Assembly: GCF_963675165.1 (NCBI RefSeq)
Contig: NC_087385.1
Span: 1,674,501 to 1,738,500 of the forward strand
From: Halichondria panicea
Lineage: Eukaryota; Porifera; Demospongiae; Suberitida; Halichondriidae
Length of the DNA stretch: 64,000 bases
Direction: 5' to 3'
In this document: in pieces, positions 54,010 to 64,000 of the stretch
How the letters are laid out: each line of letters starts with the position of its first letter
How positions within the stretch are numbered: position 1 is the first letter of the stretch
The notes under the pieces: generated by a model
What the model was told of the DNA's origin: nothing
Seen by the model: only the letters and a program-made list of their open reading frames with translations
The model's database searches: none
Program-made: the position numbers and the translations under genes

Positions 54010-57000
54010 TTAACTGTTAATGAATGACTTTAATTCTTCCTTCCACTTGAGGTGCAATTCTTCTGTCCCCATTCTCTGTAAGATATCTGTGTAGGAGAAA
54101 GTAATAATTATGATAGTCGTAGCATGTATACTATGTACTAGGCCTTACATATGTACAACACATGCAAAATACACGTACATTGTACATTGTACATTGTAAT
54201 AACAATGTGTATAATTTAAGGTCACACATGTAGCTAGCTTGCATTTAACAAGCACAAGGAGCACTTACATTGAGCTTGTGTTGGTGTCCACACAATCTTC
54301 TCCGCCAGCACATGCCTGGAAATAATTCTGAACGATCACACTTAGTATCGGGCCCTCCTCCTCACTCACAAGCACCTTGCACTCTTTGAACACATCGTAA
54401 CCATCTCGACCCTGGGCTATGTATCCCTTAGCAGCCAACTTGTAACTTTTGTTCAATTGCAATTGTTCACCACGGACTAGTACACTGTCAGGGACCACTC
54501 GAGACCCACTAGGTTGTGATTCATCAAACGAAAATTGAATTCCAGACACTTGTGGAAATCGTCCTTCCTTTTTGGGATATTGCGAGACTCCATTTTCAAG
54601 TGCTTGTATTAGCTGCGAACCCTTTACCTCGAGTACTGAGACAGCATCCACCATGGGGAGAATACTCATCAGATCCTATATTATAGTGATAATTTAATGT
54701 GCAATTGAACAACACACTCTGAACAGTCATGAAGCACATCATGTGATGTGTATACGTTTTCATTAAGAAGCAGGAGTTTTATGAACATTGCCTGCCTCAA
54801 ACTAGGTACTTTCATGAAGCAAATAATGCATTTATTAACTCACTCCTCTTCTGAATACTCCAGCATCATGGACAGTGTCCGACCTCAATGTACCAGAGTT
54901 CAAAAGTGCCACATCAGCACGTGTGACTTTCCTCATAATGTCCGTAACCAGGTTACCAAGGTTGCACTCTTGCGTCCTAAGACAGTCAAAGCGCCCCTCT
55001 AGATCGCAGTGTATATAGCCAATCTCTTCTTCCCGTCCTGCCTTTAGTCTTCCCTGAAAGTGGTCCACAATTTTCAAAACATCTTCATCAGGGGCTATTA
55101 CACTGGTTATATCGTGACGTTTTACAGAAACTTTAGGACGAGAAGTGGGCGTGTCAGGGAAAGAGACAGTGAGTTCTGAAAATTCTCTGAAATCAGAGCC
55201 ACTCTTGAGCATCAAAACATCTCCCTCCTGTGTAAATTTAAGATGTGGAAATATTGTGGATAATAATAGAGTGTTAATTGTCTGGTGATGTCAATTGGGG
55301 CTATACAGAATCTAACAAGCCACCTAGCACCTAGCCTCGAGACCAGGCCGGCCTGGTCTCGAGGCTACCTAGCACCCAACTATTCTAGCACACCAAAAGT
55401 TGAATTTCATTGTTCATTCCTACATATGCACATGTACACGTAAAAAGAGATAGGAGAGATACAAGACTTAAACTTAAAATATTTATTTTAGATTATGTGT
55501 AAAAGCATCAAGCTACAGAAAATATGTTACACGTACATGCGTTGCACGCAAGTGCCTTCACGTGCAGCTTCCTGCTCAATGCATACTTGACTTGCGTATA
55601 CACCATTTTGAACTCAAAAGTTTGCTAGGTGGCAATACACATAACACCTAGTCGTACGTGTACTCACCCACTGCTTGAGATAGTGGTGGTCGTGTCCTCC
55701 CAAGATGAGATGGATTTGGGGCACCTCTCTGGCTAGACGAAGGTCATTGGGGTCACGCATATGAGTCAGGGCAATTATCAGATCACATCCCTGAAAATAT
55801 CATAATGTACAGTATAATTATAAACTACATGCATTGTCATTATTGAGTGTCAATCAGCACTTTTACATGTATTCGTAGAAATATTCCTACACAGACACAC
55901 TGATAAAGAACCTATGAATACAACTGATAAAGAACCTATGAATACAAATGTACGAATATTAAGGGAGGTATCTCAATTTCTTGTGAACAAATTCACACAG
56001 TCAAGAAATGCGACTACATCTGGTGCATGTGTGAATACTGTGGGGTACCCAAACATGTCAACACACAGTAATACCTGAAACAAACACTGACCTCTTGTTG
56101 TAGCTCAGGCACAAGTTTCTTGGCTGTTTCCACAAAGTCAGTGTAGTCAACATCTTGTGGCTCCAGTGTAGCCAGAGTCTCAATCCACTCCCATTCTATC
56201 AGACCCAGTAAACCAATCTGAGCAAGGGAACATTGTATATGTTATGGTCTCACAACATAGAGTGGGTATCAAGTGGTTTTTTAATCCGACTTCAAAGGGA
56301 GGGCACATGACTAAAACAAGGTTTCACATTATTATTTCCAGGAAGTCTTTACTGCTAGGTACGCACATTAAGGTATGCATAGTGAGTCAGCAGTTATTAC
56401 TTGCAAAATAATACATTGTGTCACTATGAGATACATGTACGATGGGAGAAATTATACTCATGCAACTAGCACAAACAAGCTACCTTTCTTCCTCTCCAGG
56501 GGATAACGAGTTTCTCCAGACCATCAGCTAGTCTCTTCCCTGTAGAGTGCAGTCTAGCATTACTCATGAGCCAAGGGAACTCCATCTCTTTAGCCAGCGT
56601 TGCCAAGTGTTCCACACCAAAATCTGTGAACACGAAGCAGAAGGATAAAGCAACATGTACACATGCACTTGGATCATGAAATTGTACAGTTAATGAAGAT
56701 GGTCAGAAATTAGGCTACACCAAAGGGATACCGGTAGCATCTATATAATACTGTATTACAAACATGTAAGTATGTTTGTGTTTCAGTGTTACCGAAATCA
56801 TGATTTCCATACACAGCAGCGTGTACTCCAATAGCCTTGAGGATCGGTACCATTTGACGGCCTTCGGTGACGATACTGACTGCAGGGAAAAAAGACAATG
56901 TTAAAAAGAGGGAGGGTATACCAAGGGTTAGGCAAAAAATGGAAGGGGTGAGCACTAGGTGGGGATTAATGTGGGTAATCTTATATCCAGATTTCACAGG

Positions 57001-57423
57001 ATTTATTCTTATATCATTATGAATATGGTCACACACAGAAAGCATACACAATATAAATAAAAAACAGATACGCATACACCAATATAAAATGCTAAACTGA
57101 CTATTTGAAGGATTCAAAGCATCTCCACTAAACAGTATCAAAGGTTCCAAGTGTCTCAGACTGTCTATCTGTGACTTGAACCTCGCAGCACCACCAATAG
57201 GCTCCTTCCCATTAGATCTCTCTTCAATATTGTAGACATCATTGAAGTGAATTAAGGTGATACTGTCAGCTACACTAGCACTGCTACTAGAGGAAGCTTT
57301 CTCAGCATCAGGAGACCAGTTTGTGAGGCTTACAGAGGAGCCACTTCGAGCGCCCTCTCGTCTCTCAGAGTCTATGTCCCCTACTTGGTTTGGTCCAGCT
57401 GTCTTTGACACGTTACAGCCCAT
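54010..57423 (-). CDS. Metallophosphatase / 5'-nucleotidase-family protein with lipidation start
   Basis: Eight exons: 57423-57102, 56879-56793, 56623-56484, 56217-56092, 55790-55668, 55227-54844, 54675-54269 and 54073-54010; about 550 residues. Metal-site motifs in order: LIHFNDVYNIE (metal-binding Asp, with Tyr in place of the usual His), FSGDAL, VYGNHDF, LTHMRD and LGGHDHH. The C-terminal substrate domain starts around residue 340 (VALLNSGTLRSD, then AAKGYIAQGRDGYDVF). MGCNVSK at the N-terminus fits N-myristoylation plus palmitoylation, so a membrane-anchored cytosolic enzyme is inferred; a secreted signal peptide is absent. The last exon is the least certain (acceptor ACAGAG). Substrate unknown; close relatives hydrolyse nucleotides or sugar phosphates. 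Confidence 0.88.
55332..55367. repeat. Perfect 36-bp palindrome
   Basis: TAGCCTCGAGACCAGGCC joined directly to its reverse complement GGCCTGGTCTCGAGGCTA, no spacer. In an intron of the nucleotidase-like gene. Confidence 0.95.
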
Positions 57424-57684
57424 TCTTGATCTTATCTCCCAGCCAACAGCTTATTTAGTCCGATCTCCACGGTCACACAAGTCTTGTTTATGTGGCTACG
57501 TCATGTGATAGATCTAGTAGCCGCAGGTTATATCTACGTGCCCCTCCCCTTTCTTGCAGCATTTTAAAGGGGCCTACCTGCTTGCATGACTGCTGGCTAG
57601 ACTGGCTAGACACAACAGCCACTCCTCTTGCAAGCAAACAAACAACTGGCTTTGTAAAGTGAAGGACTGGACATAACTCAAGAG
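57424..57684. promoter_or_regulatory. Shared upstream region of the nucleotidase-like and SH2-WH1-GBD genes
   Basis: 261 bp between two divergent start codons. Both promoters and 5' UTRs must lie here unless a 5' UTR is spliced. No clear core element was recognised; the call rests on geometry. Confidence 0.5.
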
Positions 57685-60600
57685 ATGGCTTATTACCATG
57701 GATTAATCTCAAGCAGGAGAGCAAATTCATTGCTCACTTCAAAGCCTGATGGCACTTTCTTGATCAGAGACAGCCAGAGTCAGCCTGGAAGCTTTGTCCT
57801 CTCAGCCAAGTAAGTACCAGCAATCTGCAAAATTGTTTTAGCTAGCTAACAGTACTCGTGCTGTACTGCATAAGTCTACTGCTAATATTGTCATCATAGT
57901 GTTTCTTAAGTTATTCAAGCACCTCATAAATTCTCTCATAGAAATGGTCCAAGAATGCACCATGTGCTTGTCTTCCAGAAAGAGGGCAAGTTTCATCTCG
58001 ACAGCGCTGGGGAGCAAAGTGAAGATCCCATCATTTTCGAGACAATGGATGAAATGGTGTCCTTTCTCATTGGTCATGACCTGAAGGTCAATGGGGAAGA
58101 GATACATCTGCAAGAGATGCTACCTTGTATTGATGAGCTGAAGTACAGGGTCCGACTATCAAGCAATGGTAAGATTACTATTTCCTGCTACATTTAATAT
58201 AACATTTTCACAGCTGCAACAAGAGGTGCAGAGACCGAGGACAGTGACCAGTTGACAAATCTTTTTGCTACGTTGTTCGGAACCCACTGTGTGGTAAGAT
58301 TTACTATTTCTTTTTCTCATCACTGGATTGTCTATGTGTGTTTCAGGTTATATGTACAGCACACAGCAAGCTGAGCTTTGATGGGAAACCACTGGCCAAA
58401 GATGGAAAGGAATATATGGCTGTTATTGCAAAAGATGGGAAGCAAAAAGGTTTCTTCTTAAGACTTGTCGACAAAGAAGTGAGCTCTTATAATTTTTATC
58501 TATGAGGTAATCATTCAATTACTCAGGAGAAATGTGTAATTGGCGAGAAAAAAGTTGGGAAAGTGTTTCAGTACGACTTGCCAGGAGACTTAGTCATGAC
58601 ATACTTATCTGAGGTAAATTGCAGCATTCCATCATAGCTTGTATATAGTCTATACATTTACTGCATGTATTGTGGTAAATTTGTGGCAGGAGAATTGTCC
58701 TTGCATGACTGTGGTATATAGTCAGGAGTGTCTCTTCTCTGATATAATACTCTGCATGGTTGCAATTATGAGATACATGTACATGCAGACAGAGTTTGTT
58801 TATGTTGTCATAAGTGAGTGCCTAATTTGCAACTTTGCTAGCAACTCTGTCTGCAAACACCACACTCTTGGCCATGGTTAGTTTTGTCTGGTAAAAGGAT
58901 GGTGACAATGTTTAGTGATTGATTGTGTACGTTAGAGGAACAGTAAAAGCAAAACAAAAATCAGTCCCACTCTACATGCTAGACTATATAATTAAACAAT
59001 ACGGTAACCATATATATAGTGGGTAATTTTCGTATGAACTATAGAGCACTGAAGTGCAAACCCTCGACAAATTTGGTCTACAGCCTCGAGTCAAAGCCGC
59101 GTGTACATCTATATATGGCTATGTGCAGGTTCGAGCTTTAGCTTTTGCTTACTTTTATTCGACAACAAAGCTTTAACATCAAAATCTGCCAAATTTAAAA
59201 CTATACTAACCTGTTGTGTTGAGGCTATCCATGGTACAAACGCAGTACTATCGCATCCAGGTGAGTAGACTCAGATTACATAGAATGACGGGCAGACAGA
59301 CTGACCGACTACTATAACGTTATTTAAATATTCGTATGGCTCAGGATAGAACCTGTTGCGGCAGAATGATTTTTTTTTCGTATGATACTCTACAATACGA
59401 AATATACGAAAAATTCAACCATACACGCGAAAATAACCCGCTATACGGTATGACACTCTGTATGATATGCTCCATGCATGCTTTATCTTGTAGCATGGGA
59501 TAACGTGTATTGGTTTCCGTGACACTCGTGAAAAGGACCGGTTTCTGCACCAGATTGACAGAATTGTCAAGCTGCATCAAGATCGTGCCGTCAAACTGAG
59601 AGGGAGATCAGAGTCCGACGCTAGACCACCACCCTCAAACCCAACCGAGTAAGTTGTGTATTAATTATCTTAAGATTGATGTCAGATGCATTTTCCTCCC
59701 TCACATTTCAGAGTGGTGCACAAAATGAAAGCCACAGATTTTGATGTAAGCTGAATCATTCATGCATGATTATACTGATATATTGATGTGTTTCGATCAC
59801 CTCCATGCACACAGATCTATGACATCAGTCCTGAGTGGCAGTACTTGTTCGACCAGGCAGGCATTACCCAGGAGATGCTAGAGAACACAAAGACACTACA
59901 GTTCATCTTGGACACAGTGTATAAAATTGGAGGAGAACCAGAGAAAATTGACAGTGTACTAGAAGGTGGGTGACGTATAGAAGAAAATACAGTCTTAATC
60001 TGCCTAATATCTACAGCAAATGGCCACTCTAACGGGGACAGTGGAGACCAAACAAAGGAGAGAATAGAAGCTCTAACACTAGATGCCAATCTTAAACGAG
60101 AATCAATGCGAGCATCGTTACTATCAGAAGAGCTCATGAAAAGCTCTCTTACAAAGTACCTCCACAAATCAACCTCACATGTGTGCTCGTATCTTATTCT
60201 GTGTGAGAGGTTCAAGGATCATCTGGTTGTAAAGCACTCGCTGATTTCACTGAGCCCAGAAAATGCTGTATGTTTCTGTGAGAAGTGTGCCGCTGGGAAG
60301 CCAATGGTTCAGATTGCTGGCAATCCTCCTCAGCAATACTCCCTTCCGCTGGGTTGGTGTCAATTCATTCACCAGTAAGCAAACTAGAACGCTTAATTTA
60401 TGTAATTAATACCTATACAACTGCACATGATAATGTACACATGCATGCTAAGACTTGTATTATACAATAATTATTTGCCCTTTCTAGATGGATGTATGTA
60501 TTATAGAGTAAATTGACATTTTACCTTTTACACTGAATGTTCTTGTAGCGGAAATTCTGTTCTGTTTTCAGTTCCATTAAGTATACGTAGCTAATAACTA

Positions 60601-62354
60601 TATTAAATGGTACCCTAATGCATTCTTCACATTCACACACATGCAGATCTCAAACTCACAAGTTCTCTCAGCGCTTTGCCTCCCATTGGCATGTGGGTTA
60701 CTGCTGCGTTCCAGCGTCCAGAGTTGGCGGAGTCTTTAGGACGGGGCAGTTGCTCCATGCCCACTCGACGGGCAAGGTTCTCCTCAGTCCAGACGTCAAC
60801 TGTGCCTGCAGGGTTTCTTCCATTGCACCAGAAACGTAAGCTTACACGTGTACGTACACACCTCTATACCCCTAGAAAACAACAGCTATATAGATCAATC
60901 TAGTTAGCTAGAGCCCGGCCGTCTGCCCGTTATATAGGGGACTGAAGAAGTATTATTAGTATCATTTTACTGTACATAATTATAATCTTTAGCCTGCATG
61001 TATAGTTAACCGGTACATGTAAATGTATAATACTCTACCAGTTAGACAAATCCCCTCGATCTGCAAAGGATATGCATGTCCCTGGAATTAACATTAAAAC
61101 TATACAATTGGCATAAAGGTTGCATATAATTATCCTTAAGGTGACATATTTCGTAGGTATTATTATGAATTTGTACTATCACCGTCCGTATTACAAGAAT
61201 TTTGCTGGTGAAAAACATTTGCGAATGAGCCAAATCAGCAGAAAAATTGACCTTTTGCGATCTAACTATTGCGTTCTGGCAAGGATCGTGTGTATTTACC
61301 AGTACTAATTTAGGGTTTACGATTTTATTATTGCGAATTGATCAACCTTCGCTAATTAAGTTAGCATAATTATGTTTGATACTCGCAAAACATTCTAGTT
61401 TATAGGGTTAATTGGGAATCTCATTAGAACCACTTAATTGCAAGTAAGTATGAAAACTCATATAACTTGAGCAGATCGAATTGAATACCAGCTAAACAGC
61501 ACGCATGAATCGTAGACAAATCTACCTGTGAAAATATAAGGCCATTCCAAGTGATACTCTGGTTTCTGGTCCACCGCCTGCACCAGATTTTATTCTTGGA
61601 TTTCTACCTCATTATTGGATTTCTATCTCATTATTTCGACTATACGTATACACATGTGCGGAATGGTCCAAAATAAGTGTGATAATGATATTATATACAA
61701 ATAATGAGTTCATAAGGTGAAACCAATAATGACATAATGAAAAAAGCCACCCGCCCGCATACAATTAGAGAAACTTCAGGACCAGAAACCAGATTATCAC
61801 TTGGAGTGGCCTAAAGGCACGTCAGATATGCATAAAAAAAATTCATGCATGTTATAAAAAAAAATTATATATCACATGCATGCATGCATGTATATAGTTT
61901 CGTTTCGGTGCATCTCTAGCTATCAAAAGTAGATAATTAGACAGTGATGTCGATGACGCATGCATGTCAAGGCAATAATGCGGTTCTACGATTACTATAC
62001 AGCAGTTCAACACTCTTATAGCTATATAAAGGCAACTTCGTTCTATTAAAGAAAAATCGAACCAAGACTATATTTAATTAATTTTATAGTTGTGAGTTTT
62101 CTATATACAATACATGTACATCACTAACATACTTTACCACCATGCATGACTGTAGGTATCACGACCAAGCTATGGACCAACATTTCAAGGTGCACACAGT
62201 GTTTCAAGTGTTCATTCAGCCGGGGACCTACAATGTGCAGGTGGCTACAGAGCCAAGCTCCTCCACCCTCAGCACACAGCTAGAGTGGCACGTCTCAGAG
62301 AGAACTTACATCATCCACTCACTACTCGTCTTATTGGTGCCCTCAGCTAATTAG
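57685..62354 (+). CDS. Mosaic SH2-WH1-GBD (WASP-like) protein with an unknown C-terminal module
   Basis: Eleven exons, all phases agree: 57685-57809, 57942-58168, 58214-58293, 58347-58478, 58527-58613, 59494-59648, 59712-59745, 59815-59965, 60017-60374, 60647-60835 and 62156-62354; 578 residues. SH2 (about 3-110): YYHGLISSRRANSLL, TFLIRDS with the phosphotyrosine-binding Arg, and FETMDEMVSFLIGH. WH1 (about 129-250): LTNLFATLFGTHCVVICTAH, GFFLRLVDKE and REKDRFLHQI, in the same order as WASP (LFSLLGKKCV, YFLRIFD). GBD helices (about 275-325): ISPEWQYLFDQAGITQEML then FILDTVYKIGGEPEKI, compare WASP DPELKNLFDMCGIS. The CRIB core (I-S-x-P...H-x-x-H-V-G) is not present. No Pro-rich segment or WH2/VCA follows. 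Instead come CFCEKCA, YSLPLGWCQFIH, SHWHVGYC, TGQLL and LEWHVSERTYIIHSLLVLLV. That last region is unnamed. Likely a cytoplasmic phosphotyrosine adaptor. Confidence 0.85.
59043..59320. mobile_element. Repeat family A, copy 3
   Basis: AGAGCACTGAAGTGCAAACC, TTCGACAACAAAGCTTTAAC, GTTGAGGCTATCCATGGT and CATCCAGGTGAGTAGACTCA. It lies in the intron that splits the WH1 domain (58614-59493). Confidence 0.75.
61187..61403. mobile_element. MITE family B, copy 5
   Basis: CCGTATTACAAGAATTTTGC...ACTCGCAAAACATTCTAG. Contains GGTGAAAAACATTTGCGAAT and GGCAAGGATCGTGTGTATTT. The right end is degraded. In the last intron of the SH2-WH1-GBD gene. Confidence 0.85.
61539..61812. mobile_element. MITE family C, copy 2
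   Basis: AGGCCATTCCAAGTGATACT...ATCACTTGGAGTGGCCT, 274 bp. The interior matches the copy at 12358-12613 in reverse orientation (CACCCGCCCGCAT; CATAAGGTGAAACC). Confidence 0.85.
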
Positions 62355-62643
62355 GGATAATTACTGACTGACAGCAAACCAAACTATAATTATAGTAAAC
62401 AACACGATATAGCTATACTCACTTTATATGGAACTTTAATTATTATTGCACGACAATATTAAATTGTACAGTCATGCAATTTTACGTCAATGTAATTATG
62501 TCCCTAATCAGATGTTGTCGAAGTTATAGACTACTATATATAATTATACTATAATAATAATTATACTTAAGAACAATTGTTCTGTAAACATCCAAATCAA
62601 TAGAAAATTCTTAATTAGTGCAGCTCATTATAGGAAAGTTTGC

Positions 62644-63519
62644 TTATAGTTCACTACTAGCAAAAGTTTTAAACTTGCTCATAATCTTGAATCTGTCCAC
62701 CACAACTATTCCAATCTCCTTCAACACATTCTTCATCAGTCCCTGTTCTGTATCCATCATCATATCGCCATCAATCTCATTTTTCTCGAAAAGCTCAACA
62801 TACTTTTCAAATTTATTTTCTTTTAAGAACCTCAGTACTTCGGAGACAGGGAGGCGTGGCTCAGTGTCCTGTAGTCGCCGTGGAAATAGAGTCATGATAC
62901 GAACACAATCAAGAAGAGAGTTGACTCCGAGTTCATTCAGGAATTCGCAATCAGCATCCAACAAGACGTCCCCTCCAACCTCAGCTTCAACAAACGCTTG
63001 TCGGTACTTGTCTAGCTTAATGCTTGTAAGGAAGTCTCCAACATCTTCAGGTGTGTAGGTCCTGGCCTTGGGGGCTAACTCTTCGTTATCTGAATAGACA
63101 CAACGCCAAATCAATGGAATTCAACAGTCAGTCATATGCATACATGTAACTTTGATATAAGCACACAATATGAATGTACACGATAGCGCCAATGGCATAT
63201 AAAAGAAGAGAGGGCATGCAATACAGCAAAAGAGCAAGACTATTTTTAGCACTTCATGCAAATTCCCACATTCCTCCGCCCACATTTGACTTCTGCTAGC
63301 TACGTGTACTAGTTAGTGAGCTGCATGCACTCTCTTCTTTTATACGCCTTTGATAACGCTCTGTATAATTATGTACATATTTATATAGTGCTCAACAATA
63401 TTAAATTATTTGTACGCACTTATAAGTTTATGCATACACACCTTTCTTCATGATGATGCTCTGTGCCATGGACATTATCTTCTTCTGGAAGTCAGGGTCT
63501 TCTTGGAATCTTGATTTCA
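62644..63519 (-). CDS. Tandem SAM-domain protein, C-terminal part (5' end outside window)
   Basis: Two exons are visible: 63519-63442 and 63089-62644, with matching phase; the acceptor at 63519 shows that more exons lie upstream. The first encodes SRFQEDPDFQKKIMSMAQSI, a basic helix. The second has two SAM domains: YTPEDVGDFLTSIKLDKYRQ ... LNELGVNSLLDCVRIMT, and LPVSEVLRFLKENKFEKYVE ... VLKEIGIVVVDRFKIMSKF. SAM domains mediate protein-protein oligomerisation. Without the N-terminus the family cannot be named. Tail to tail with the SH2-WH1-GBD gene, 289 bp apart. Confidence 0.85.
63191..63352. mobile_element. MITE family D, copy 2 (uninterrupted)
   Basis: GGCATATAAAAGAAGAGAGG...CACTCTCTTCTTTTATACGCC; 162 bp; interior CAGCAAAAGAGC and CTATTTTTAGCACTTCATGC shared with 31380-31430. 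In an intron of the SAM gene. Confidence 0.85.
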
Positions 63520-63601
63520 CTGAAAAAGCGGTGTGGTGTAGTCAATTATGAGAGGTGAATAGTGCCAAAATGATGCAAGCTAGTGTGAGACAAAACTTTG
63601 T

Positions 63602-63948
63602 TGGGGGCGGCGGCTTAGCCTCAAATATGTTACTGTGGCCGTGAATAAGATGAGGTTGAAACCATTTTGACCTTAGCTAATTAAGGTCACTAATTGCATT
63701 TCTCCAAAAATTACTTCTATAGCCTAGTTTTTAGAGTTTTAGGGTGTGGTCAAATTTATACAAATTGGTGCTGTTGTGTTACCTTCGAGACCAGGCAATT
63801 GCTCTAGGCTCTAGTGCTAACTTCAATATCAGGCCGCTCATGGTCTCGAGGCTAGCACATGCAGGAACACTATTAGCTAAGGTCATGTAGTTCCAACCTC
63901 ATCTTATTCATGGCCCCCTTAACACATTTAAGGCTAAGCCGTTGCCAC
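63602..63948. mobile_element. Foldback/MITE element at the right edge
   Basis: Left GGCGGCTTAGCCT then CCGTGAATAAGATGAGGTTG; right CAACCTCATCTTATTCATGG then AGGCTAAGCCGTTGCC. About 347 bp with arms of 60-70 bp. It encloses a further palindromic pair (CTCGAGACCAGG / TGGTCTCGAGG) at 63783-63853. Confidence 0.8.
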
Positions 63949-64000
63949 CAACTAAACACCTGCCGCCTCCTAGTACAGATCATGCAGCCACATTTTGGCA

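Follow-up and report, generated by a model that had tools for sequence, protein, structure and literature searches.

In a 64,000-nucleotide stretch of the genome of the sponge Halichondria panicea (hereafter the window, by which we mean the whole stretch of DNA that was analysed) lies a gene whose single polypeptide carries an SH2 domain, a WH1 domain and a part of the GBD of WASP, one after the other, and it is this gene, together with the question of what such a protein might do, that concerns us here. A reading made earlier from the DNA letters alone (the sequence-only reading) had joined eleven exons in phase into one frame of 578 codons. That model proved to be exact: every junction has GT-AG borders, and the product is identical (100% identity over 100%, 578/578 residues) to that of NCBI LOC135341052, an uncharacterized gene of Halichondria panicea (genome size, 131 Mb), so that the exon model is backed by an independent annotation. 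The gene and its parts are the following, where WAID stands for WASP autoinhibitory domain, a name taken from Kollmar et al. 2012 (PMC3298513).

57685..62354, plus strand: the whole gene, 11 coding exons, stop included, 578 amino acids, with GT-AG borders and in-phase joins
57685-57809, 57942-58168, 58214-58293, 58347-58478, 58527-58613 and 59494-59648, plus strand: exons 1-6
59712-59745, 59815-59965, 60017-60374, 60647-60835 and 62156-62354 (stop included), plus strand: exons 7-11
57691..58140, plus strand: SH2 domain, residues 3-108 (exons 1-2), from Pfam and PDB matches
58237..59592, plus strand: WH1 domain, residues ~126-250 (exons 3-6), with the EVH1-type Trp absent, from Pfam matches in relatives and a PDB profile
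59731..59964, plus strand: WAID, the second half of the GBD, residues 276-330 (exons 7-8), from N-WASP GBD matches
60055..60150, plus strand: conserved charged stretch, residues 344-375, consensus ERxxALAVDHALRRESxRASRLADEL, in 10/10 rows of the family alignment
60184..60297, plus strand: Cys-rich stretch, residues 387-424 (C...CxCxxC), with four invariant Cys
60334..62351, plus strand: probable NEURL4-type ADP-ribosyltransferase-like domain, residues 437-578 (exons 9-11), from hhalign and motif tables

Is such a layout shared, or is it the peculiarity of one animal? Two full-length searches of 5.8 billion proteins gave one and the same set of ten, namely the window protein and nine relatives with 41-55% identity to it, and then dropped to a vertebrate PI3K subunit that matches by its SH2. 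Scoring was limited to the 7996 candidates with the most words in common, which may let more distant relatives slip by, and among the candidates scored, no relative outside sponges was found. SH2 and WH1 matches stand together in eight of the ten (the window protein and 7/9 relatives), and the two members without an SH2 match are P0007, which has an unrelated N-terminus, and P0010, which starts inside the SH2. Three of those seven relatives (P0002, P0003 and P0006) have no contig longer than 1761-2136 bases, which is too short for an intron-bearing gene of such a kind, so these three are probably transcripts. The SH2-WH1 layout of the window gene is thus confirmed as an observation, and the split into two transcripts between exons 2 and 3, which the sequence-only reading had named as a refuting result, was not seen among these relatives.

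Halichondria, Amphimedon and Geodia are named as sources of family members, and P0004, by its id (Em0018g935a), is presumably from Ephydatia muelleri. These four genera belong, by taxonomy, to four orders of Demospongiae, and the remaining six family members are, we infer, sponge proteins as well. Far from being peculiar to one species, the gene is conserved among demosponges, and its distribution suggests an origin before the split of the four orders. A search with the C-terminal part of P0004 as query was of low sensitivity, with only five family members among 173 candidates and further members missed. The database name of P0009, from Geodia barretti, is "Tyrosine-protein phosphatase corkscrew (Fragment)," and it is in truth a relative of the window gene; a part of its C-terminal domain fails to align and is probably misread.

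The SH2 head matches Pfam PF00017 at 2.3e-13 over residues 3-58, and in a single-sequence search of the PDB, the SH2 structures of SHP2 match residues 4-108 at 5e-15. The FLVR arginine, within F[LI][IVL]RDS, is present in all eight rows with an intact SH2, and the domain may be expected to bind phosphotyrosine. The likeness to SHP2/corkscrew, which gives the best PDB matches for this part (and which lent its name to the Geodia relative), does not go beyond the SH2, since by Pfam the window protein has neither a phosphatase domain nor a second SH2.

For the WH1 domain, the window protein scores 19.3 bits in Pfam, below the cut-off of 22.4, and all nine relatives score above it. A profile built from residues ~120-335 of seven of the ten family proteins, and searched against the PDB, found N-WASP at 3.6e-19 in two stretches, one being the WH1 and the other the latter half of the GBD. 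At E<=1 the search listed ten PDB sequences, every one of them WASP or N-WASP (among them N-WASP 6uhc_H and the WIP-WH1 fusions 1mke/2ifs), and no Ena/VASP, Homer or SPRED. The WH1 and GBD that the sequence-only reading had placed at 58214-59965 are thus both matched, and its domain order (SH2, WH1, GBD) is upheld by the Pfam, PDB and profile matches. It had also suggested that the WH1 could bind WIP, and this part has been weakened. The tryptophan of the proline-binding site, which is present in sponge WASP and in N-WASP and which we take to contact the proline ligand as a member of the aromatic cluster, is absent at its position in 10/10 rows (P0003, P0007 and P0009 have a Trp elsewhere, close to the WH1 end). 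Because it has been lost, classical WIP binding appears doubtful.

The GBD, said earlier to have been kept, has been kept by half. Its second, autoinhibitory half, the WAID, brings up N-WASP at 2e-8 in the single-sequence PDB search (best stretch, residues 263-321), and the WH1+GBD profile matches the short GBD chains 9r3y, 8s5t and 2lnh at 1.6e-6 to 1.9e-6; Pfam gave no match at E<=10 on the GBD part of the window protein. The core of the WAID pocket reads YLFDQAGIT in the window protein vs. NLFDMCGIS in N-WASP, and its retention in the aligned rows suggests that a binding surface has been retained with it. The CRIB half, on the other side, is gone: between KA and FD there are 2 residues in 6/6 aligned family rows, compared with 22 in sponge WASP and 21 in N-WASP, the HVG core included.

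The inputs that open WASP are Cdc42 via the CRIB, Src-family kinases via the GBD tyrosine and phosphoinositide via the basic stretch, and the output goes from the VCA to Arp2/3. In the window family, the tyrosine of FIYDF/VIYDF (presumably the site of the Src-family kinases) is replaced by Leu in 10/10 rows, and at the place aligned with the basic region there is no run resembling KKKGKAKKKR, as judged by motif, with a short GERKKKGR nearby in P0003. All six frames of 57000-64000 were scanned for WH2-like, acidic-Trp and P5+ motifs and gave none (motifs cut by splicing would be missed), and the same scan, applied as a positive control to the WASP locus of this genome, found all three kinds, along with two extra WH2-like matches that look like chance. 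The claim that VCA, proline-rich region and CRIB core had all been lost is therefore supported by the gap in the alignment as well as by the scan.

From where could the block of WH1 and WAID have come? Identity in the WH1-GBD part is 25% to sponge WASP and 24% to N-WASP. The same genome has tandem WASP-like genes (L017, G000:C7:1790500-1800400), with WH2 and acidic tail present, and the first six exons of copy 1, with their five introns, were compared with the window gene. Four of the five WASP introns share both alignment column and phase 0 with window-gene introns, those after residues 144, 188, 217 and 280. These fall after CV, DKE, LSE and FD, and the exon between the second and the third of them has 29 codons in both genes. 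Because four of five introns coincide in column and phase, it would seem that a block of a WASP gene was reused, introns included, and chance would be hard to invoke. The introns without a partner (after residue 137 in WASP, and after residues 268 and 330 in the window gene) count on the other side. With the profile match and the shared introns together, the WASP-like nature of the protein, which had been proposed at the outset, becomes a WASP origin. In the WASP locus itself, copy 1 ends in an acidic-Trp tail, and behind copy 2 the locus showed no such motif.

Behind the WAID come the charged stretch, probably a helix, and the Cys-rich stretch, whose Cys 387, 416, 418 and 421 are invariant in 9/9 aligned C-terminal rows, and then the C-terminal module, which the earlier reading had called unknown. 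No credible Pfam match was found in nine C-terminal rows (best E 0.086), and a PDB profile search with the C-terminal alignment gave no credible match (smoothelin, at E 0.25, was judged to be chance). Its pattern, PxGWxxF ... WHVAYxxV ... LSPD ... FQVxIQPGSY, resembles, in our estimation, that of the NEURL4-type ADP-ribosyltransferase-like (ART-like) domains. A genome search with VA[YF]HGT gave one match (as did its reversed-pattern control), in an open frame with an ART-like domain, and from there three relatives were followed. These four NEURL4-type genes (L031-L034, on contigs C3, C9 and C17) have open frames of 320-481 codons with YHGT intact and, by eye, an apparent ubiquitin-like region ahead of the ART-like domain. 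As a family, they match PARP PF00644 with a best E of 4.1e-4 (three of the four at E<=10) and PARP10 structures at 0.011.

When the window family was aligned with this ART family by hhalign, 92-99 columns followed in order, with a score of 28-29 and E of 8e-4 to 1.4e-3. Not one of 300 column shuffles reached the real 29.2 (mean 13.0, highest 22.8), the reversed alignment scored 13.4, and other parts of the same protein gave 12.1 (SH2), 15.0 (WAID with the stretch that follows) and 18.5 (WH1). There are points on the opposite side of the balance: the WH1 control just given (its E is 0.031), the probability of 17-24% that hhalign assigns to the link, the comparison turned round (score 23.4, E 7.5e-3, probability 5%), the single displayed PARP score of the ART family (15.5 bits, where Pfam requires 26.7) and the lack of Pfam and PDB matches for the module itself. 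With these taken into account, we think it probable that the module is a degenerate NEURL4-type ART-like domain. A second copy of it was not found in the genome, where only its own three exons matched, and no relatives were found in viral contigs; for the ART family, none were found in viral and prokaryote contigs. A search for NEURL4 by the pattern LPxGW brought up the window gene itself and matches with no fitting reading frame around them. Dense matches to Neuralized (NHR) exons extend over 56 kb of contig C3 (G000:C3:447015-503390), which suggests a tandem gene expansion.

How far does all of this depart from what has been described? With WASP and N-WASP, the protein has in common a WH1 followed by a WAID (and, with this sponge's own WASP, the four intron positions and phases), and it differs from them in having no CRIB, polyproline or VCA, in the SH2 in front and in the ART-like module behind. 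It is, to go by its sequence, WASP-derived, yet by definition it is no WASP-family Arp2/3 activator, lacking as it does CRIB, polyproline and VCA. WAWH and WAML, as the consulted portion of Kollmar et al. presents them (PMC3298513), are also WASP blocks recombined with other domains, and WAML, too, has no CRIB and keeps the autoinhibitory domain; both, however, retain the VCA, WAWH having no WH1 and WAML carrying an IMD domain in front, whereas the window protein keeps the WH1 and has lost the VCA. The words "SH2," "Amphimedon" and "sponge" occur 0 times each in the main text of that paper. The truncated N-WASP V418fs, according to the portion of PMC11720165 consulted, likewise has WH1 and GBD without VCA, although it is a cancer mutant with no SH2 or ART-like domain, and the window layout belongs to a conserved gene. 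With the NEURL4-type ART-like family (De Souza and Aravind 2012, as cited in the consulted portion of PMC7955679), the window family has collinear blocks in common, PxGW ... W-x-V-x-Y ... SP ... Q-x-x-[IV]-x-P, and differs in the loss of the His and in having no ubiquitin-like region, whereas the four related sponge genes keep YHGT. No description of a protein with SH2 and WH1, or of a sponge WASP with SH2, was found in the open-licence literature, as judged by listings, and the sequence-only reading, in stating that no described animal protein with the order SH2-WH1-GBD was known to it, agrees with this and with the uncharacterized status of the NCBI entry.

We can now put forward what such a gene might be. 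The block of a WASP gene from WH1 to WAID, with its introns, would have been joined behind an SH2 and ahead of a degenerate ART-like domain, and the inputs of WASP (CRIB, GBD tyrosine and basic stretch) and its VCA output would have been lost. The SH2 would take the protein to tyrosine-phosphorylated receptors or scaffolds, where WH1 and WAID would engage partners of the WASP pathway, and at the ART-like end there would be a module that binds without catalysing. What the WAID holds would most likely be an amphipathic helix. This could be the C-helix of true WASP, bound in trans, and the protein would then brake Arp2/3 locally, or it could be a helix within the protein itself. We lean, by a little, toward this view of a rebuilt WASP gene whose product acts as an adaptor or brake recruited by phosphotyrosine. 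A brake in trans, which the sequence-only reading had likewise suggested, is possible because the core of the WAID is kept and a true WASP with a C-region is encoded in the same genome. In the portion of PMC11720165 consulted, the VCA-less V418fs is a dominant negative that lowers nuclear F-actin in U2OS cells; against us, it left nuclear F-actin unaltered in the other cells tested, and the doubt about WIP binding by a WH1 without its Trp tells in the same direction. The strongest form of the idea, in which stripping has made of WASP a dedicated and heritable Arp2/3 brake, with the WAID taken out of the control of Cdc42 and Src and placed under a phosphotyrosine reader, and with a dead ART-like domain for docking, we advance tentatively and regard as rather doubtful.

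The other explanations differ in which part of the protein they put to work. If it were the C-terminal end, the product might be an active ADP-ribosyltransferase whose catalytic set is unusual and which SH2 and WH1 bring to the proteins that it modifies, those of phosphotyrosine complexes or of the WASP pathway. The consulted portion of PMC7955679 gives human NEURL4 as H-L-E, with HGS, LLS and ELE. In the window protein, the second motif, VLLSPD, contains the same LLS, a QLE stands near the third motif, another glutamate, an ER one farther along, is retained by 7/9 rows that reach it, and P0010 has a His directly behind the His position. The His of motif I, however, is C469 in the window protein and is replaced in 9/9 readable rows (Cys in six, Ser in two, Thr in one, the row of P0009 being misread there), and the glutamate is not kept across the family, the QLE being confined to the window protein among the nine rows that reach it. 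The catalytic triad H-[Y/L]-E is thus not kept. We consider an active enzyme very improbable, and a dead one, used for binding, would be the likeliest state of the domain, the lack of catalysis being read from its motifs. Might the protein instead be a closed switch in cis, with residues 344-375 sitting on the WAID until engagement of the SH2 by phosphotyrosine opens it and frees the ART-like module? The stretch is conserved in 10/10 rows, it follows shortly after the WAID and the core of the WAID pocket is kept. The pattern for GBD C-helix ligands given in the consulted portion of PMC11253601, [ILV][VA]xx[LI]xxx[LM] without Pro, has 0 matches in the window protein and none in this stretch in ten rows; where it does match, in five of the ten rows, the match falls within the SH2 in P0002 and close to the C-terminus in P0003, P0005, P0007 and P0009. 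If Met is allowed at position 1, which is a relaxation of our own, the C-region of both sponge WASP copies matches, and the stretch still does not. As a mimic of the C-helix, it was therefore rejected, a cis helix is less supported and a closed state of the protein's own, which our preferred view would also have allowed, goes unsupported; we hold the cis-switch to be unlikely.

There remains the middle of the protein, where WH1 and WAID may have drifted to new partners, the WASP parts being then structural spacers in a signalling scaffold that has nothing to do with Arp2/3. The loss of the WH1 Trp, of the CRIB and of the GBD tyrosine would fit this well, as would the low identity to sponge WASP and N-WASP, and the kept WAID core, with the binding surface that it suggests, would not; this is a possibility of some substance, although not one that we would call probable. 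That two adjoining genes were merely run together in prediction, for which one might point to the confinement of the SH2 to exons 1-2, was rejected, and its likelihood is negligible, given that the same fusion is repeated in 7/9 relatives, three of them with contigs no longer than a transcript might be.

The surroundings of the gene can be described briefly. At 56500-57423 of the window (minus strand) is a divergent neighbour, which reads by eye as 5'-nucleotidase/metallophosphoesterase-like with the N-terminus MGCNVSK; its start codon and that of the SH2-WH1 gene are 262 bases apart, and the two genes possibly share a promoter. Downstream, at 62650-63520 (minus strand), is a gene that by eye has the appearance of a SAM-domain-like gene.

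WASP is the textbook autoinhibited switch, and what is known of the module that holds it closed comes mainly from its action in cis, on the VCA of the same molecule. A conserved gene that has the holding module, and not the known inputs or output of WASP, would amount to a natural experiment on the module by itself, and it offers a simple test, namely whether an autoinhibitory domain on its own can restrain WASP in trans in a living animal. If the protein is indeed a brake, we would have in it the natural counterpart to the dominant-negative N-WASP without VCA, and also the first fusion of WASP and ART. Its spread over four orders of demosponges would bear on the way in which tyrosine-kinase signalling came to be coupled to actin in early animals.

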